A stretch of 21,896 nucleotides of DNA, from the IMG/VR virus record IMGVR_UViG_3300012920_000321, positions 1 to 21,896 of that record; one strand, written 5' to 3'. The stretch's first letter is position 1. Each line of letters opens with the position of its first letter. A program made the position numbers and the translations under genes. Below, in pieces: positions 4,589-18,000 of the stretch. Origin of the DNA: a virus. Below the pieces are notes generated by a model, which was not told where the DNA came from, searched no databases, and saw only the letters and a program-made list of their open reading frames with translations.

Positions 4589-4596
4589 TATAAATA
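4589..4596 (+). promoter_or_regulatory. T4-type late promoter upstream of gp13
   Basis: TATAAATA matches the T4 late-promoter -10 consensus in full. It is intergenic, between the 61-residue gene and gp13, and ends 28 bases before the gp13 start. T4 late promoters need gp55-type sigma factor and the sliding clamp and lack a -35 element; none is evident here. Confidence 0.75.
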
Positions 4597-4624: not shown

Positions 4625-5380
4625 ATGGCAAACCCAACTTCTCGAGCTACATTAATAGATTATTGTAAACGAAGACTCGGTGATCCTGTTATCGAGATAA
4701 ACGTTGATGTTGATCAACTTGAAGATCGTGTAGATGAAGCTCTACAATATTATCAAGAATATCATCATGATGCCACTATACGTACATATGTTTCTCATCT
4801 TGTAACTTCCACTGATGTAACAAATCAATATATTAGTATAAACGATAATATTATATTCGTTACTCGTATGTTTGCATTATCAAACACTATTAGTGGAAGT
4901 GGTAATTTCTTTGATGTAAAATATCAAATGATGTTAAATGACATGACAGACATTCAAAGATTTGCTGGTGACTTAGCTTACTTTGAACAAATTCAACAAT
5001 ATCTTTCTTTATTAGATATTAAATTAAATGGTCATCCTCAAACTGAATATTCTAGAAAACAAGATAGACTTTACATCTTTGGAGATTTTAAAGATCAAGA
5101 TATTAAAGAAGGTGATTACATAGTATATGAAGCATATCAAATTGTTGATCCAAGTACTCATACTCAGATATTTAATGATATGTGGTTAAAAGAATATACA
5201 ACAGCATTAATTAAACAACAATGGGGACAAAATTTAATTAAGTTTGAAGGAATGCAACTTCCTGGTGGAGTTATGTTAAACGGTAGGCAGATATATGATG
5301 ATGCATCTGGAGACATTGAAGCTCTTCGTGAACGTATTAGATTAGAACATGAAATGCCTCCTAACTTTTTTGTAGGATAG
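4625..5380 (+). CDS. gp13: neck protein gp13 (head completion)
   Basis: This 251-residue protein begins MANPTSRATLIDYCKRRLG, with a helical segment QLEDRVDEALQYYQEYHHD at about 30-48. Both are typical of T4 gp13 homologs; T4 gp13 is about 309 residues and marine homologs are shorter. With gp14 it forms the neck that seals the filled head and gives the docking site for the tail. GGAG at 4615-4618 precedes the start, and a perfect late promoter lies just upstream. The next gene, gp14, starts 1 base after the stop. Gene order 13-14-15-16-17 agrees with T4, which makes the assignment strong. Confidence 0.92.
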   Translation: MANPTSRATLIDYCKRRLGDPVIEINVDVDQLEDRVDEALQYYQEYHHDATIRTYVSHLVTSTDVTNQYISINDNIIFVTRMFALSNTISGSGNFFDVKYQMMLNDMTDIQRFAGDLAYFEQIQQYLSLLDIKLNGHPQTEYSRKQDRLYIFGDFKDQDIKEGDYIVYEAYQIVDPSTHTQIFNDMWLKEYTTALIKQQWGQNLIKFEGMQLPGGVMLNGRQIYDDASGDIEALRERIRLEHEMPPNFFVG

Positions 5381-5381
5381 T

Positions 5382-6278
5382 ATGAGAAATTTTTATTTTT
5401 CTGATAAAGTAAAATCAGAACAAAATTTATACGAAGATATAATCATTGAATCGTTAAAAATTTACGGTCAAGATGTTTACTATCTTCCAAGAGATATTGT
5501 CCAAGAAGATAAAATTTTAGGACACGATATACCTTCCAGATTTAATTCTTCTCACAAAGTTGAAATGTATATTGAAAATATTGAAGGCTTTGATGGAGAA
5601 GGAGATTTATTTACAAGATTTGGTGTAGAGATAAGAGATGAAGCTACTTTTGTTGTTTCTCGTAGAAGATGGGTTCAACAAGTACAAAGAATGGATACTG
5701 AATTAACAAGTGTTCGTCCTAGAGAAGGAGATCTAATATATCTTCCATTATCTAATTCTTTATTTCAAATTATGCATGTTGAACATGAACAACCATTTTA
5801 TCAATTAAACAATCTTCCTGTATTCAAAATGAGATGTCAGTTATTTGAATATAATGATGAAGATTTAGATACTGGTATAGATGTTATTGATAAGATAGAG
5901 CAAGATTTTGCTTACACATATATTTTAAAATTAAATACCACTACAGGATTAATTGAAATAGGTGAGACAGCTACACAAACACTTTCAAGTGGTGTAACTA
6001 TAGCTGGTGAAGTTTCAAAATGGTCTGATTCTGATCAGTTATTACATCTAATACATATTAATACAAGTGATAATAAATATCATACGTACACTGCAGGAGG
6101 GACTGTAGCTATTACTGGAGATCAAGGTAGATTAGCTGATTCATCATTCTCAATTGTAAGTGTAAGTGAGGAAAATAAAATTTCAAGTACTGAACAAAAT
6201 ACAGACTTCAGTCCTTCAAGTTTAAGTTTCCTTGATTTTACTGAAAATAACCCATTTGGAGATCCGGAGAATAATTAA
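5382..6278 (+). CDS. gp14: neck protein gp14 (head completion)
   Basis: This 298-residue protein begins MRNFYFSDKVKSEQNLYEDII. Recognisable gp14 elements are the DVYYLPRDIV stretch (about 30-39), RRRWVQQVQ (about 104-112) and RPREGDLIYLPL (about 120-131), followed by FEYNDEDLDTGI near 175. The C-terminal third (about 190-298) is Ser/Thr-rich and includes a DFTENNPFGDP segment. T4 gp14 is about 256 residues, so this copy is somewhat longer. It joins gp13 in the neck after DNA packaging. Its stop overlaps the following small gene as TAATG, indicating coupled translation. Confidence 0.92.
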   Translation: MRNFYFSDKVKSEQNLYEDIIIESLKIYGQDVYYLPRDIVQEDKILGHDIPSRFNSSHKVEMYIENIEGFDGEGDLFTRFGVEIRDEATFVVSRRRWVQQVQRMDTELTSVRPREGDLIYLPLSNSLFQIMHVEHEQPFYQLNNLPVFKMRCQLFEYNDEDLDTGIDVIDKIEQDFAYTYILKLNTTTGLIEIGETATQTLSSGVTIAGEVSKWSDSDQLLHLIHINTSDNKYHTYTAGGTVAITGDQGRLADSSFSIVSVSEENKISSTEQNTDFSPSSLSFLDFTENNPFGDPENN

Positions 6279-6426: not shown

Positions 6427-7200
6427 ATGTTTGGTACTCATTTCTATCATCAAAAAGTAAGAAAATGTGTTGCAATATTTGGAGCATTATTTAATAACTT
6501 ATATGTTGTTAGACCTAACAGTCAAGTTAAAGTACCATTGTCATACGCACCTAAAGAAAAATTCTTAGCTAGAATTAGAGAAAATCCAGACTTAACTACT
6601 GATACAAAAGTAGCTATTAAGTTACCTCGTATGTCTTTTGAAATTCTTTCGTTTTCATATGACAATCAAAGACAATTAACAAAAGTTAGTAATTTTAAAA
6701 CTTCTGGAACAGCTAATACAAACAGACAAAAGTTTTTCTCTCCTGTTCCTTACAATATTCAATTTCAATTAAATATATATGCAAAGAATCAAGATGATGC
6801 ATTACAAATCGTTGAACAAATATTACCTACATTTAATCCTCAATATTCATTAACTATAAAACCGTTTGCAACTGAATTTCCATCTTTTAAAGAAGATATC
6901 CCAATTATTATAAACAGTCTTTCCTTTAGTGATGATTTTGAAGGAACTCTTGATACAAGACGAACAATAGTATATACTTTAGATTTTGAAATGAAAATTA
7001 GTTTTTATGGTTCTATATCTAATTCAGATATTATTAGAACTTCTAAAGCTACATTCTTTGATATGAATGCAGGAGGAAATGATTCTGATATTGCTATTCA
7101 AAGAATTACAACAACCCCAAATCCAGCAAATACTATTGGTTTAGCTGATAGTGATTTTGGATTTACAAATACAATAACTTTATTGAGTGATAGTGCCTAA
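6427..7200 (+). CDS. gp15: tail completion / proximal sheath stabiliser gp15
   Basis: This 257-residue protein opens MFGTHFYHQKVRKCVAIFGALFNNLYV, a characteristic gp15 N-terminus, followed by PLSYAPKEKFLARIRENPDL (about 39-58) and LPRMSFEILSFSYDNQRQL (about 66-84). T4 gp15 is about 272 residues. In T4 it forms the hexameric ring on top of the tail tube and sheath, to which the neck docks. AAGGA at 6411-6415 lies 11 bases before the start. Its final TAA overlaps the nuclease start as TAATG. Placement after gp14 and before the terminase genes confirms the assignment. Confidence 0.92.
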   Translation: MFGTHFYHQKVRKCVAIFGALFNNLYVVRPNSQVKVPLSYAPKEKFLARIRENPDLTTDTKVAIKLPRMSFEILSFSYDNQRQLTKVSNFKTSGTANTNRQKFFSPVPYNIQFQLNIYAKNQDDALQIVEQILPTFNPQYSLTIKPFATEFPSFKEDIPIIINSLSFSDDFEGTLDTRRTIVYTLDFEMKISFYGSISNSDIIRTSKATFFDMNAGGNDSDIAIQRITTTPNPANTIGLADSDFGFTNTITLLSDSA

Positions 7201-7625
7201 TGTACAAATATAGATGTAAATTAAAAAAAGTAGTCGATGGTGATACTGTTGACATAGATATAGATCTAGGTTTTGAGGTTTGGTTGAAAAATCAACGAGT
7301 AAGACTATATGGAGTTGATACTCCAGAATCAAGAACTAGAGATAAAGAAGAAAAAAAATATGGTTTAGCTGCTAAACAATTTGTAGAGAATTTTTTAGAT
7401 GATAAGTGGTTAATACTACAAACAGAAACATATGATGCAGCAGGAAAGTTTGGAAGGATATTAGGTTCATTATATAGAACTACAAATTATGCTGATCAAT
7501 CATTAAATGAATATTTGATTGAAAAACATTATGCTGTTCCATATTATGGACAATCAAAAGAAGACATTCAAAAACAACACTTGGAAAATCGTAAGTTTGT
7601 TAACTTAACAGAAAAAATAATATGA
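7200..7625 (+). CDS. staphylococcal-nuclease-like (thermonuclease) protein
   Basis: This is a 141-residue protein of the SNase (thermonuclease) fold. Visible catalytic elements are VVDGDTV (Asp13 and Asp15, Ca2+ ligands), RVRLYGVDTPES (Arg35, Asp40, Thr41, Glu43) and KFGRILGSLY (Arg86). These correspond to the Asp21, Arg35, Asp40, Thr41, Glu43 and Arg87 set of the Staphylococcus aureus enzyme, so it is predicted active. The family cleaves DNA and RNA phosphodiester bonds with Ca2+. There is no signal peptide, so it would act in the cytoplasm or be carried in the virion. It overlaps gp15 (TAATG) and gp16 (ATGA), so it belongs to the packaging operon. Possible roles are concatemer trimming, host DNA degradation or virion-borne nuclease; none is shown by the sequence. 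Confidence 0.9.
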   Translation: MYKYRCKLKKVVDGDTVDIDIDLGFEVWLKNQRVRLYGVDTPESRTRDKEEKKYGLAAKQFVENFLDDKWLILQTETYDAAGKFGRILGSLYRTTNYADQSLNEYLIEKHYAVPYYGQSKEDIQKQHLENRKFVNLTEKII

Positions 7626-7963
7626 GTGAAAAAAATATAAAATCAGATTATGATTACTCGCGAGAAACTTACTATGATCTTTTAGAAAAAGGTAGACAAT
7701 CATTAGAAGATATGATTGATGTTGCTCGAGCTTCTGAACATCCTAGAGCATATGAAGTTTTATCTGGTATGATTAAAAATTTATCTGAAGTAAATGATAA
7801 ATTAATGGATCTAAATAAAAAGAATAAAGATATTAGTAAAGAAGAAATGAAACAAGTAGCCCATACAACAAATAATAATGTATTTTTAGGATCCACTGCT
7901 GATTTGCAAAAGTTATTGAAACAAGAGGGTGAAGTCATTGATGTCACAGCAGACACTAAATGA
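7622..7963 (+). CDS. gp16: small terminase subunit gp16
   Basis: This is a 113-residue, highly charged, largely helical protein. Segments ETYYDLLEKGRQSLEDMIDVA (about 15-35) and HPRAYEVLSGMIKNLSEVNDKL (about 40-61) are typical of the oligomerising helical core of T4-like gp16. T4 gp16 is about 164 residues and marine homologs are shorter. The small subunit recognises or regulates DNA entry and stimulates the gp17 ATPase during packaging. Its start overlaps the nuclease stop (ATGA), and its 3' end overlaps the gp17 start by 23 bases, so the packaging pair is translated together. Assignment rests on position and helical pattern. Confidence 0.85.
   Translation: MSEKNIKSDYDYSRETYYDLLEKGRQSLEDMIDVARASEHPRAYEVLSGMIKNLSEVNDKLMDLNKKNKDISKEEMKQVAHTTNNNVFLGSTADLQKLLKQEGEVIDVTADTK
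7924..7931 (+). promoter_or_regulatory. ribosome-binding site that fixes the gp17 start
   Basis: AGAGGGTG inside the gp16 gene lies 9 bases before ATG 7941 and supports that start over the in-frame GTG at 7929, which has no suitably spaced site of its own. Confidence 0.55.
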
Positions 7964-9545
7964 TACTTATTTAGGTAATATAAATGTCAAGAGAGATGGT
8001 GTTGTTCAACAATGGACACCTGATCTTGTAAAAGAATATGCAAAGTGTATGAATGACCCTATATACTTTGCTCAACAATATTGTAAAATTATCTCTTTAG
8101 ATCGAGGATTAGTACCTTTTGAACTTTATCCTTATCAAAAGAAAATGTTTGAGGTATTCAATGAACATAGGTTTAATATTGTTTTGGCTTGCAGACAGTC
8201 AGGTAAATCAATCTCAGCATGTGCGTACTTATTATGGTTCGCTTTATTCAATTCAGAAAAAACCGTCGCGGTTCTTGCAAATAAAGGCGCGACTGCAAGA
8301 GAAATGCTCGCGCGCGTTACTCTCATGTTGGAAAATATTCCCTTTTTTCTACAACCAGGTACAAAAGCTCTTAACAAAGGATCTCTTGAATTTAGTAACA
8401 ATTCTCGTATCATCGCTGCTGCTACTTCTGGTTCTTCTATTCGTGGTCTTTCCGTTAATTTACTATACTTAGACGAATTTGCGTTCGTTGAAAGAGCTGC
8501 TGAGTTTTACACTTCAACATATCCTGTTGTTTCTTCAGGTAAAGATACAAAAATTATAGTTACATCTACTGCAAATGGTATAGGAAACACATTCTATAAA
8601 ATATGGGAAGGGGCTATACAAGGTATTAATGAATTTAATTCTTTTAGAGTAGATTGGTGGGATGTTCCTGGAAGAGATGAACAATGGAAAGAACAAACAA
8701 TAGCTAATACTTCTAGATTACAGTTTGATCAAGAATTTGGTAATACATTTTTTGGAACTGGTGATACTTTAATAAATGCTGAAACATTGATGGATTTTAG
8801 AGCTCAACCTCATACTAAAGCATTAGAAGGTGGTGATTTATTAGTATATAAAGAACCTGAAAAAAAACATGATTATATCATGTGTGTAGATGTAAGTAAG
8901 GGAAGAGGACAGGATTATTCTACTTTTAATTTAATCGATATTAGCGTCCGCCCTTTCGAGCAAGTTGCTGTGTACCGCAACAACACTATTTCTCCATTAC
9001 TCTTCCCCAATATTATCTATAAGTATGCAAAAGGCTACAATGAAGCATATGTAGTAATTGAAGCTAATGATCAAGGAGCTGTAGTATGTAATGGATTATA
9101 TTATGATTTAGAGTATGAAAATGTTCATTTAGAATCATCAATAAAAGCTAATGCAATTGGTATAGAAATGAACAGAAAGACAAAACGTCTTGGATGTTCA
9201 GCTATAAAAGATTTATTAGAAAATAAAAAGTTGACTATTGTAGATGAACAGACTATAATAGAAATGTCTACATTTGTTGCAAAAGGTTTATCATATGAAG
9301 CTAGTGATGGTAACCATGATGATCTAATAATGAATTTTGTTTTATTTGGATATTTTACATCAACACAATACTTTGGTGATCTAACTGATATTAATTTAAA
9401 ACAAATGATATTTGATCAAAAATTAAAACAAATAGAGGATGATATAGTTCCGTTTGGTTTTATAGATGATGCATCAGAACACATAGAAAAATTAGAACAA
9501 AATCAAAAGGGTGAGTGGTCTGTTGAGTATGATCCTAATTTTTAA
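7941..9545 (+). CDS. gp17: large terminase subunit gp17 (packaging ATPase/nuclease)
   Basis: From ATG 7941 the protein is 534 residues (T4 gp17 is 610). The N-terminal ATPase shows LYPYQKKMF, Walker A ACRQSGKS (83-90, Lys89), Walker B LLYLDE (174-179, Asp178, catalytic Glu179) and coupling motif TSTANG (208-213). The C-terminal RNase-H-type nuclease shows MCVDVSKGRGQDYS (Asp317), VVIEANDQG (Glu374) and DGNHDDLIM (Asp460/Asp461), giving a full acidic set. It pumps DNA through the portal and cuts concatemers at a full head. It overlaps gp16 by 23 bases. Two stretches (about 8240-8470 and 8930-9015) are clearly more GC-rich than the surrounding gene, with GCG and CGC codons. Confidence 0.97.
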   Translation: MSQQTLNDTYLGNINVKRDGVVQQWTPDLVKEYAKCMNDPIYFAQQYCKIISLDRGLVPFELYPYQKKMFEVFNEHRFNIVLACRQSGKSISACAYLLWFALFNSEKTVAVLANKGATAREMLARVTLMLENIPFFLQPGTKALNKGSLEFSNNSRIIAAATSGSSIRGLSVNLLYLDEFAFVERAAEFYTSTYPVVSSGKDTKIIVTSTANGIGNTFYKIWEGAIQGINEFNSFRVDWWDVPGRDEQWKEQTIANTSRLQFDQEFGNTFFGTGDTLINAETLMDFRAQPHTKALEGGDLLVYKEPEKKHDYIMCVDVSKGRGQDYSTFNLIDISVRPFEQVAVYRNNTISPLLFPNIIYKYAKGYNEAYVVIEANDQGAVVCNGLYYDLEYENVHLESSIKANAIGIEMNRKTKRLGCSAIKDLLENKKLTIVDEQTIIEMSTFVAKGLSYEASDGNHDDLIMNFVLFGYFTSTQYFGDLTDINLKQMIFDQKLKQIEDDIVPFGFIDDASEHIEKLEQNQKGEWSVEYDPNF

Positions 9546-9550
9546 ATTAT

Positions 9551-9558
9551 TATAAATA
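9551..9558 (+). promoter_or_regulatory. T4-type late promoter upstream of gp18
   Basis: A perfect TATAAATA follows the gp17 stop by 5 bases. It would give a leader of nearly 60 bases before the sheath gene, longer than that of the other late promoters here. AAGGA at 9611-9615 is the ribosome-binding site. Confidence 0.75.
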
Positions 9559-13841: not shown

Positions 13842-15041
13842 ATGAAACAGATAATCAACGAAGCTCTTTTAGCCTTAGCTGTTAAAAATCTAAAAGAAGA
13901 AGTTGCCAAACTAAAAGATCAACCACCTAGACGAGGACGTCAAGGTCCTCAAGGAAATAAAGGTGAAAGAGGCCTTATTGGAGAACAAGGTCCTCAAGGT
14001 ATTCCAGGGAAAAGAGGAAAACAAGGTATACAAGGTATTCCTGGTAAACAGGGATTACAAGGACTTCGTGGTGAACAAGGTTTAATTGGTGAACAAGGAG
14101 AACAAGGACAGCAAGGTGAACAAGGTATTCAAGGTATTCAAGGTGAACGTGGATTACAAGGCTTACAAGGACTTCCTGGTGTTCAAGGATTACAAGGTGA
14201 AAAAGGAGACAAAGGAGATCGTGGTCCTCAAGGTATAAGAGGTTTAATTGGTGAACAAGGTGTTCAAGGTGAGCAAGGTATTCAAGGTATACCTGGCGTT
14301 ATTGGAGAACAAGGTGAGCGAGGTTCTCAAGGTGAAAAAGGAGATCGTGGTCCACAGGGTCTTAAAGGTGAAAAAGGAGATCGTGGAGAACAAGGTCCTC
14401 AAGGTATTCAAGGTGAAGTTGGTCCTAAAGGAGAAGATGGTACTAATGTTACATTAGAAGATGTTAAACCAATACTTGACAAATACAATAATGATTATAC
14501 TCGTTTTGTTAGTAATGTTAATAAATCATTAGCTTCTATAGGTGGTGGTGGTTTAGGTGAAGCAGATGTACTAAAATTAATTAATGATAATAGTAGTAGT
14601 GGTAGTGGTTCAAGTGATGTAGATTTATCTGCAGTAGATCAACATATTATTCCAAGTGAAACAGAAACATATGATTTAGGTACTTCAAGTAAAAAATGGA
14701 GAGATTTGTTTTTATCTGGATCATCAATAAATTTAGGTGATGCTAAAATTAGTATTTCATCTAATGGAGGAATACAATTAAAAGATGAACAAGGGACAAC
14801 TCCAAGTCTAACAACTTCAAATACAACTACTATACCTGGATCAAGTGGTAATTTTGATTTAAGAGCTTCAGAAGGAGATGGTGATAATGTAGCACTTGAA
14901 AATGATGCTGGAAATACTCTTGGATCTGTAAGTACTGATGCATTTGGTGCTAATCAAACAACAATATATGATTGCATGGAACCTTTTGGAACATTTAAAA
15001 CTCATGATTATGGTTCAGGGGAAACACATGTTGGAGCTTAA
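13842..15041 (+). CDS. collagen-like virion fibre protein
   Basis: This 399-residue protein has three parts. Residues 1-31 form a charged amphipathic helix ([20 protein letters not shown]), possibly a trimerising coiled coil. Residues 32-199 are 56 uninterrupted Gly-X-Y triplets, with Gln dominant in Y and salt-bridge patterns such as EKGDRG and NKGERG. Residues 200-399 are a beta-type tail with [20 protein letters not shown] and [16 protein letters not shown], a motif common in marine-phage fibres. The protein probably forms a rod-like triple helix on the virion surface, with the tail as tip. Phages lack proline hydroxylation, so stability would come from charge pairs and Gln. It is 1 base from gp20 and probably co-transcribed with it. 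Confidence 0.85.
13935..14438 (+). repeat. Gly-X-Y coding repeat (56 triplets)
   Basis: A 504-base tract of 9-base-periodic codons encodes residues 32-199 of the collagen-like protein. Units such as CAAGGTATTCAAGGT recur, making the tract prone to slippage or recombination that changes rod length in whole triplets. Confidence 0.9.
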
Positions 15042-15047
15042 AAAGTA

Positions 15048-15055
15048 TATAAATA
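15048..15055 (+). promoter_or_regulatory. T4-type late promoter upstream of the large fibre gene
   Basis: A perfect TATAAATA is placed 28 bases before the start at 15084, the same spacing as the gp13 promoter. GAGGT at 15075-15079 serves as ribosome-binding site. Confidence 0.75.
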
Positions 15056-15083: not shown

Positions 15084-18000
15084 ATGCCTACAACATTACA
15101 ATTTAGAAGAGGTACCGCTACACAAAACGATTCTTTTACCGGTGCCGCTGGTGAAATAACATTTGATACCACTAACAATACATTACGTGTACATAATGCT
15201 TCTACTGCGGGTGGAACAAGATTAGCGACAAAAGCTGAACTCGATGCACTAAACGTTTCCTCATTTACAGGAGGTGAGGGAATTGATATCAGTAATAGCA
15301 ATGTTATATCTGGAGAAGATGCAACAACATCTAATAAAGGTATAGCATCATTTGCTTCTGCTGATTTTGATGTAACATCGGGTGCTGTAACAATTGCATC
15401 AGGTGGTGTTAGTAATACACAATTGGCAGGTTCAATAGCTAATGCTAAGTTAGCAAATTCTACTGTAAGTTACGGTGGAGTATCACTAGCATTAGGAGCT
15501 ACAGATGCTACTCCAGCTTTTGATTTATCTGATGCAACTAATTATCCTACAAGTTCATTATCAGGAACTATTACAAATGCTCAATTAGCTGGCTCAATTG
15601 CTAATGCTAAATTAGCTAACTCTTCTTTTACAATTACTGATGGAAGTACATCTCAGTCTATAGCTTTAGGTGATACTTTAACAGTTACTGCTGGTGAAGG
15701 TATTGATGCTGTTGTTTCAGCTACTGATACTCTCACAATTTCAGCAGAAGATGCAACTGTATCTAATAAAGGTGTTGCTAGTTTTAACACAAATCATTTT
15801 ACAGTTTCGTCTGGTGCTGTATCAGTAAAAACATTAAATCAAAATACAACAGGAAATGCAGCTACAGCTACAGCTTTAGAAACAGCTAGAACAATAGCTG
15901 GTGTATCATTTGATGGTACTGGTGATATTGCAATTCCTATAGAAAACTTATCAAATGTAAGTAGTACATCTCCATCTACAAATCAAATATTAAAATGGTC
16001 AGGATCTGAATGGGCTCCAGCTGCAGATGGTGGTGGAACTGTTACTGAAGCATTTAAAACAATTGCTGTTGCAGGACAAGATGATGTTGTTGCTGATGGA
16101 GCTACTGATACATTAACATTTGCTGCTGGTAGTAATATGACTATCACTACAAATGCTTCTGGAGATACAATTACATTTACAGCCGCTGGAGGTGGTGGTG
16201 GTGATGTTACTTCAGTAACAGCTGGTAATGGTTTACTAGGTGGTGGAACTTCCGGAGATATATCCATTAGTGTTGATTCTGATAATATAAAAACTTTTAT
16301 ACCTAAATTTGGAACAGATTTTATAGATTCAGCAGCAGCTAACACATTAATTGATACTCGAGTAAATGCAACATTTATTAATAATTTAACAATTGATGCT
16401 GATACTTTAGGTGGACAAAATGGAGCTTATTATAGAGCATATAGTAATTTAACTGGTACTCCTACTATTCCAGCTTTTGGAACAGACTTTGTAGATTCGG
16501 CTACAGTAAATACTTTAGCAGATGCTCGTATAGCAAATAATATAATTGATGAAGATAACATGGCTAGTAATAGTGCAACAAGAGCACCTAGTCAACAATC
16601 AGTAAAATCATATGTTACTACTCAAATTGACGGAATAGTAGATGCTGCTCCTGGAGCTTTGAATACGTTAAACGAATTGGCTGCAGCTCTTGGAGACGAT
16701 GCTAATTTTAGTACAACAGTAACTAATTCAATAGCTGCAAAAGGTACATTAGATTCAGCTCGAACTATAGATCCTAAATTAGGAACAGATTTTGTTGACT
16801 CCGCTGAAGCTAGAAAATTAATTGTAGGTAATAAAGGAATAAATTATGCTTCGGGTACTGGAGTAATTGATATTGACTCAGCTAATATAAGAAGTTTTAC
16901 TGTAGCTGATGCAATTAATAATGGTACTACAAATATTGCACCTTCTCAAAACGCGGTATTTGATGCACTGGCTCTTAAATTAGATGCTAGTGCTGTTCCT
17001 ACACTTGGAGGTAGTTTTGTAGACTCAGCTGAAGCGCGTAAAGTTATATCAGGTGGAACTGGTATTACATATAATTCTAGTACTGGTGTAATTACTACTA
17101 CTGATGCAGATATTGTTCATGATAATTTATCCGGATTTGTAGCTAACGAACACATAGATCATAGTGCAGTTTCTATTATTGCTGGTAAAGGATTATTAGG
17201 TGGTGGTACGATTGCATCAAATAGAACACTTAATATAGATTCTTCAAATGTAGATAAAATGATTGATTCTAATTTAGGTGGAAGTTCAGTAACTATAAAT
17301 GGTAACGGATCAACTGGTGGTATTACAATATCTGATGGTTTAATAGATATGCGAACTGGGACTGGTAGTGTCTCAAAAATTAAATTTTATTGTGAAGTTA
17401 ATAATGCTCATGCACAAACATTACAAGCTCAGCCACATTCTGCTGGTAGTTCAGCAGTTATAGTTTTACCAACTGCTTCTGGAACACTTCTTAATGATAA
17501 TGGATCTGGTGCAAATTTAACAAATTTAAATGCGTCAAATTTAGCAAGTGGAACTGTTCCTTCAGCTAGACTTTCATTAACAACAGCTAATATTGCTTCA
17601 GGTACATTTGATTCTGCTAGAATACCTAAACTTGCTGGTTCAGATATTACTGCTGGAAGATTAGATTCAGATCGCTTACCAGTAGGTGTTTCATATGGTT
17701 CTGGTGGTGGTGGAGGTGGAGGAGGAGGATCTTCAATAACAATACAAGATGAAGGATCTTCTTTATCGACTGCAGCCACAACTATTAATTTTGTAGGAAA
17801 TGGTGTAGTAGCATCAGGTACCGGTTCAACTAAGACAATTACCATATCTGGTGGTGGAAGTGGAGTTACTGTTCAAGAAGAAGGATCTAGTCTTTCTACT
17901 TCAGGTACAACATTAAATTTTGTAGGACGAGGAATTACTGCAACTGGAAGTGGTGCTACTAAAACTATTACATCTCATGTAGATTCAGCTGCTGTTAATT

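Follow-up and report, generated by a model that had tools for sequence, protein, structure and literature searches.

The locus raised the question why a T4-like phage carries a nuclease gene between the genes for the tail sheath stabiliser and the small terminase, and which function the encoded protein might have. The window, i.e., the whole stretch of DNA that was analyzed (21,896 nt), is a 21.9-kb IMG/VR virus record of a marine-type T4-like phage, in which the genes gp13 to gp20 are present in the T4 order. The nuclease gene and its neighbors are:

4625 to 5380, plus strand: gp13, head-tail adaptor, first gene of the unit (phrog_211)
5382 to 6278, plus strand: gp14, head closure, second gene of the unit (PF11649, phrog_460)
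6427 to 7200, plus strand: gp15, tail sheath stabiliser (PF16724, E 1.3e-67)
7200 to 7625, plus strand: gene of the SNase-family nuclease, 141 aa (PF00565 / phrog_452; cyanophage T4-GC228 belongs to this family)
7622 to 7963, plus strand: gp16, small terminase (PF11053; phrog_445, E 8e-40)
7929 to 9545, plus strand: gp17, large terminase, in the predicted late unit of the SNase gene (PF03237, PF17289)

The initial annotation had described the gene as overlapping both gp15 and gp16, and this is the case. The gp15 stop codon ends at position 7200, which is the A of the SNase ATG (overlap of 1 nt), and the gp16 ATG starts at 7622, while the SNase stop codon ends at 7625 (overlap of 4 nt). It is also correct that T4 has no gene at this spot: in T4 gp15 ends at position 96185 and gp16 starts at 96194, with eight bases in between. 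No metabolic gene is present beside the window SNase, unlike the typical cyanophage gp16-gp17 location near carbon-metabolism genes.

The open reading frame starts with ATG and stops with TGA. Pfam analysis of the 141-aa protein revealed the SNase domain PF00565 (E 3e-13, 50.6 bits versus a cut-off of 21), and the PHROGs match was phrog_452 "endonuclease" (E 2.7e-39, residues 1-132). A sequence search of the PDB yielded the S. aureus nuclease (E 2.9e-6). An AlphaFold2 model was generated from alignment A1, which comprised 60 of the 63 window and locus sequences (references L040, L050, and L055 were left out), and it had a pLDDT of 87.7 and a pTM of 0.80. When the model was used for a Foldseek search, all solved structures among the matches listed were S. 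aureus nuclease (E 3.6e-9), and a VIA-align comparison with this enzyme gave a Z score of 13.5 and 2.9 A over 113 residues. The residues D15, R35, D40, E43, and R86 of the window SNase aligned with D21, R35, D40, E43, and R87 of the S. aureus nuclease. The respective codons are:

7242 to 7244, plus strand: D15 codon, equivalent of S. aureus nuclease D21
7302 to 7328, plus strand: codons R35-E43 (RLYGVDTPE), with active-site R35, D40, T41, and E43 (PDB match, alignment)
7455 to 7457, plus strand: R86 codon, equivalent of S. aureus nuclease R87

D15 is presumably a metal ligand, and we take the catalytic roles of the other aligned residues to be those known for the family. An alignment of 117 sequences, including the window and excluding L202 (77 aa), showed that all five residues are invariant in the 29 copies that are located between gp15 and gp16 (the slot). 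In the 88 non-slot sequences R35, D40, and R86 were present in all 88, E43 in 87, and D15 in 86 (two gaps). The SNase fold and the catalytic Asp/Arg/Asp/Glu/Arg set are thus intact and the enzyme is probably active, as judged from the alignment and the model, and the claim of a predicted-active SNase-family gene with all catalytic residues was upheld by Pfam, the aligned active site, and the agreement of AlphaFold2 and VIA-align. The dN/dS values of slot pairs were between 0.02 and 0.08 in eight of the nine computable pairs and 0.18 in the ninth, a very close pair (dS 0.11); the values are rough, because a tenth pair was saturated and several dS values were above 1. They indicate that the slot SNase is evolving under purifying selection. 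The GC content of the SNase gene (0.281) is like that of gp15 (0.281) and gp16 (0.289), and thus the composition gives no sign that the gene was recently acquired from beyond the phage pool.

Next, the likely time of expression was considered. The motif TATAAATA is the late promoter element of T4, and a variant, NATAAATA, has been described for S-PM2 (PMC2984593). Two occurrences flank the region:

4589 to 4596, plus strand: TATAAATA, a late promoter motif of the T4 type that begins 36 nt ahead of the gp13 start codon; opens the predicted unit that contains the SNase gene
9551 to 9558, plus strand: TATAAATA upstream of gp18, predicted start of the next late unit (motif scan)

The window contains six copies of the motif versus 4.2 expected, and the count itself is not significant, in contrast to the position of the motif across relatives. 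There, distinct upstream regions contained the motif in 59 of 73 cases for gp13 and in 81 of 81 for gp18. The respective values were 0 of 80 for gp14, 1 of 105 for gp15, 0 of 69 for gp19, and 4 of 62 for gp20, and the motif was never found upstream of the SNase gene (0/30), gp16 (0/115), or gp17 (0/97); the background inside gp17 was 36 of 1439 windows. The presence of the motif before gp13 and gp18, yet not before the SNase gene, gp16, or gp17, places the SNase gene inside a gp13-gp17 late unit, and its transcription very probably proceeds from the late promoter of gp13. The promoter and terminator of its own by which a moron is recognized were not found for the window SNase (late motifs 0/30, overlaps of 1 nt and 4 nt), and no terminator-like site was detected between 6427 and 9545. 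A sigma-70-like match within gp15 (6950-6978, 10/12) could be an early promoter and counts against a late-only reading, but such matches are at chance level in the region (39 found versus 43.3 expected). The late expression that had been claimed for the gene was therefore supported by the motif pattern across relatives, in which no late promoter directly precedes the SNase gene. In the accessible parts of the literature, no transcript time course was found for a phage with this SNase gene.

The predicted late unit bears on two possible functions. The genes denA, ndd, and denB are missing in cyanomyoviruses, for which a nuclease not yet described has been postulated (PMC2984593, PMC10976474), so that the SNase might be an early replacement for the missing host-DNA-degrading nucleases denA/denB. 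However, it is located in a late unit without a promoter of its own, and no SNase was found anywhere in the contigs of the relatives G002 and G003 (141 and 147 kb, possibly incomplete), indicating that its function is dispensable. An early replacement is thus regarded as highly unlikely. Production together with structural proteins would fit a virion or injected protein that attacks the DNA of the host or of competitors when the next infection begins. The T4 prohead protease cleaves at the motif LxE(A/G/S). In 18 slot representatives, no such site was present among the 40 N-terminal residues, and these proteins have neither an N-terminal extension nor a hydrophobic leader. In addition, S-SM1 encodes the endonuclease, but it is not mentioned where the main text describes the virion proteome (41 proteins) of this phage (PMC3037559). 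A virion or injected role finds no support in the sequence and is very unlikely.

The gp15-gp16 interval was then surveyed in T4-like relatives, as had been proposed in the initial annotation. From the 80 contigs each that were most similar to the window by gp17 and by gp15, plus L006, 121 loci with both genes were obtained. The presence of an SNase in the slot was confirmed for 23 of the 121 loci, which are near relatives of the window only and were not dereplicated, but the slot is not reserved for it, because 46 loci contained other ORFs and 52 had a gap under 150 nt ("empty"). Dereplication started from 103 rows, each with 150 aa or more of gp15 and of gp17, and resulted in 80 rows, window included, of which 17 had an SNase, 33 had nothing, and 30 had other cargo. 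A survey that started from the SNase was rejected as a measure of placement frequency: only one slot copy (L006) was among the 80 listed, and L167 and L168 (82% identical) were missed. The junctions are tight: relative to the final base of the gp15 stop codon, the SNase starts at -7 to +3 nt in 23 of the 29 slot loci, among them the window, and at +9 to +13 in five others, while L213 has another gene in between. In six SNase-free relatives the gp16 homology starts 0-2 bases past the gp15 stop.

The other slot cargo belongs mostly to one chained group of 35 fibre/structural-like ORFs and a group of 10. The slot ORF L087:1107-1988 matches phrog_677, a baseplate wedge/tail-fibre connector, and the slot ORFs of L219 and L144 had no named match. 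A 78-aa Cys-rich ORF without family match is alone in the slot of L187, L188, L190, L191, and L192 (e.g., L190:6807-7043). The slot of L105 (L105:2214-3744) contains aprB, the adenylylsulfate reductase beta subunit (TIGR02060, E 1.9e-53), as well as a ring-hydroxylating oxygenase-like gene (PF00848), i.e., sulfur/aromatic metabolism cargo. The other flank of gp16 also takes inserts: L214, L106, and L223 have gp16-gp17 gaps of about 300 nt and an empty gp15-gp16 slot.

The SNase gene was also found at other places in relatives. In Melnitz it is located between gp5-type baseplate genes and gp25, where it closes a late unit other than gp13-gp17. The first gene of this unit, a gp5-type OB gene, has TATAAATA starting 29 nt upstream, and the next TATAAATA is at the end of the SNase gene, before a baseplate wedge gene. 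In S-TIM5 and S-SM2 the SNase is part of clusters with plastocyanin, PTOX, and carbon-metabolism genes. In S-IOM18, S-SM1, and S-RIM2 it is directly before gp17, and in P-RSM4 it is also before gp17, with two genes in between. In C48C1, which is the closest isolate by gp17, gp15-gp16-gp17 are contiguous, the slot is empty, and the SNase is about 62 kb round the circle. The 142-kb contig G001 also has an empty slot; its SNase is flanked by a large exported-looking ORF and a tail-assembly-chaperone-like ORF and belongs to a non-packaging cluster with TATAAATA starting 27 nt upstream of the first gene. Among 49 non-slot representatives (including 4 isolates) an endolysin-like gene was directly upstream in eight, and 114 of 168 neighbor families occurred only once; the placement "elsewhere" is less sure for the 11 representatives that are near a contig end. 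One SNase lineage (L065, L066, L072, L076, L081, and relatives) has a phage-lysozyme-type endolysin gene just upstream, which was checked for L072, and this could be a hint that the nuclease is used at lysis. No late motif was present within 100 nt upstream of the non-slot copies (0/49, many of them not T4-like), and thus late expression of most of these is a candidate only.

These results can be compared with a role in packaging, which the initial annotation had favored together with a role in the virion. The SNase would then be an accessory of gp16/gp17, e.g., for concatemer debranching or trimming at the portal instead of endonuclease VII (gp49). Several observations are in line with this. 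The SNase gene is translationally overlapped with gp16 in the window, and two gp15-gp17 arrangements exist, i.e., gp15-SNase-gp16 (window) and gp16-cargo-SNase-gp17 (S-SM1, S-RIM2, P-RSM4); cyanophages of several genera keep the SNase just upstream of gp17, as a packaging link would predict. Furthermore, endonuclease VII (PF02945) was undetected in eight of eight SNase-carrying isolate records and in 11 of 11 related contigs; the search gave no match in the 14-genome set, while the T4 positive control was found. The PF02945 domain was also not found by Pfam in the window SNase itself. However, G002 and G003 lack both the SNase and endonuclease VII, and thus the function is not required, with the reservation that these contigs may be incomplete. 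The slot is empty in C48C1, the copies of Melnitz, S-TIM5, and S-SM2 are elsewhere, and the slot is also used by unrelated fibre-like cargo. Both nucleases can coexist, because "Enase VII" is listed for 5 of 16 cyanophages and the endonuclease for 15 (Sullivan et al. 2010, PMC3037559). Slot copies also do not have an N-terminal extension relative to copies elsewhere. The initial annotation had itself held that many unrelated positions in relatives would speak against a link to packaging, and this is largely what was found (Melnitz, S-TIM5, S-SM2, C48C1, environmental contigs). A packaging accessory is therefore unlikely. It is rather improbable, too, that phages without detectable endonuclease VII repeatedly recruited the SNase to the terminase unit, at two positions around gp16, for debranching or clean-up coupled to headful packaging.

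The history of the gene was analyzed with an SNase tree of 72 representatives at 95% (140 columns), in which many forks are unresolved. Slot and non-slot copies are mixed, with nine changes of the slot label, at least five of them forced by well supported branches (eight binary changes instead of nine if L088, probably a slot copy, is counted as one). A single clade of slot copies was rejected (p-AU 1.4e-6, L088 as slot), again at variance with a packaging- or virion-tied role. The baseplate-located SNase of Melnitz nests with the slot copy L218 (bootstrap/SH-aLRT 94/93), and the slot copy L116 has the non-slot pair L014 and L017 as its neighbors in the tree, of which L017 lies close to the end of its contig. 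The slot label is nevertheless more clustered than shuffled labels (nine changes versus a mean of 15.8), which indicates some vertical maintenance of the SNase beside gp16. For 406 pairs of slot loci, the identity correlations (rho) were 0.38 for SNase and gp15, 0.27 for SNase and gp16, and 0.79 for gp15 and gp16. For example, gp15 of L171 is 82% like that of the window and its SNase 70%, but the L171 SNase is 87% like that of L225, whose gp15 is only 73%; in L171, L006, L218, L203, and L213 the nearest SNase and the nearest gp15 are from different phages. On a gp15+gp17 tree of the 80 dereplicated rows the presence of the SNase changed at least six times, and in the sister group of the window and L167 the slot is empty in nine of ten rows. 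The mixed tree and the loose tie to the flanking genes indicate that the SNase was exchanged between slots and between the slot and other sites.

Such exchange could suggest that the SNase cuts DNA and promotes the spread of itself or its neighbors. It is found in variable regions and at cassette edges, its exchange between slots is decoupled from the flanking genes, and mobilisation and gene shuffling by the cyanophage endonucleases were proposed as a guess by Sullivan et al. 2010 (PMC3037559). In contrast, no homing endonuclease domain (HNH, GIY-YIG, LAGLIDADG, or similar) was detected in the window SNase, for which Pfam revealed only SNase and PHROGs no such domain. SNase-family enzymes are not sequence-specific. 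The gene-tight junctions have no target footprint, and these junctions, as well as those of the six SNase-free relatives, could result from ordinary homologous recombination through gp15 and gp16. A mobility nuclease therefore appears quite unlikely. Likewise, a nuclease against co-infecting phages, plasmids, or a defence system was considered, because the PADLOC model PDLC01096 (candidate C3a212, SNc+LTD) matches. The match comprises only the SNase domain, and neither a recurrent partner domain nor an immunity-type gene was found beside the SNase, making this function most improbable.

Taken together, we favor, as the somewhat more probable reading of the sequence comparisons, that the SNase is exchangeable, late-made nuclease cargo, probably a non-specific enzyme of the sugar-non-specific type that cuts DNA and RNA, which would degrade nucleic acid in late infection or during lysis. 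The stand-alone, leaderless protein with a complete active site, which moves among late operons with unrelated tasks, is indicative of a general nuclease and not of a subunit of the packaging motor. By comparison of position, catalytic site, promoter pattern, and history, it is swappable cargo of a gp15-gp16 slot that accommodates one or a few genes, and it is very probably transcribed with gp13-gp17; the conserved feature seems to be late expression via hitch-hiking in different late operons, not nearness to the terminase. Its most likely substrates would be nucleic acid of the host and unpackaged nucleic acid, degraded during late infection or upon opening of the cell, and the nucleotides could be recycled, or DNA could be cleared from the lysate while the packaged genomes are protected. 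The S. aureus nuclease requires Ca2+. If the phage SNase were also Ca2+-dependent, it might, speculatively, be weak in the cytoplasm and be switched on by seawater calcium at lysis; an Mg2+-dependent member of the SNase family is also known (PMC3585158). The gp15-gp16 junction of the marine T4-like clade is thus a recurrent cargo slot, a widespread uncharacterised cyanophage "endonuclease" family travels among several late operons, and the question moves from a packaging nuclease to why marine T4-like phages want a late SNase.

Three known proteins are similar to the window SNase. The S. aureus thermonuclease is a secreted bacterial enzyme. It has the fold and the active-site residues in common with the window SNase, but the phage protein has no hydrophobic leader, and it is far below the NCBI equivalog cut-offs (39 versus 180 and 37 versus 250 bits). 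The "nuclease-like protein" of Melnitz EXVC044M (QZI94884.1) is 63% identical and is encoded at the end of a late unit, but it is between gp5 and gp25, outside the packaging unit. The cyanophage T4-GC228 proteins (PF00565; e.g., SSM1_125 of S-SM1) belong to the same phrog_452 family and are small stand-alone SNase domains. In T4-like marine phages they frequently map to the variable gp15-gp17 interval, as does the window SNase. They are, however, only about 45-50% identical, and in cyanophages gp16 directly follows gp15 and the SNase is before gp17 behind metabolic cargo, whereas in the window it is alone between gp15 and gp16. The gp16-gp17 site is not truly defining, because the location also varies in cyanophages. 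GenBank notes tie PF00565 to GC228; section 27 of PMC3037559 swaps GC228 and GC282 relative to the legend of Fig. S7.

Variable cargo in the gp15-gp17 stretch of the structural module is also a property of the hyperplastic region g15-g18 of cyanomyoviruses, after Millard 2009 (cited in PMC2984593 and PMC3037559). The slot differs in that it comprises only gp15-gp16 and contains mostly one or two genes, usually the SNase or fibre/structural-like ORFs. The position of the hyperplastic region was called unique to cyanophages (PMC2984593). An endonuclease that is not numbered in the table was reported for 15 of 16 cyanophages, with hot spots that include gp16-gp17 (Sullivan et al. 2010, PMC3037559). 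The gp15-SNase-gp16 arrangement is therefore a new spot for a known family, as family and hotspot had already been described for cyanophages. Neither this arrangement nor a tested function of the phage SNase family was found in open-access PMC text. The word "nuclease" does not occur in the text on pelagimyophages (PMC7029224), and the accessible text on Melnitz (PMC9004378) does not discuss the SNase gene. Two further candidates were rejected: GBSV1-NSN (PMC2390534), examined as a possible characterised example of a phage SNase, proved to be DnaD-like and is not homologous to any known nuclease, and SNases are not treated in the accessible text of PMC10448857 on nucleases at exchange boundaries.

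A last observation concerns the region downstream of gp20 in the window. T4-like phages usually continue with head genes after gp20. Here, a collagen-like triple-helix repeat protein (PF01391) is encoded directly after the gp20 portal gene (13842-15041), followed by long fibre-like ORFs. A further copy of TATAAATA is present at 15048-15055, 36 nt upstream of a 1258-aa fibre-like ORF at 15084, which is consistent with a further late unit.
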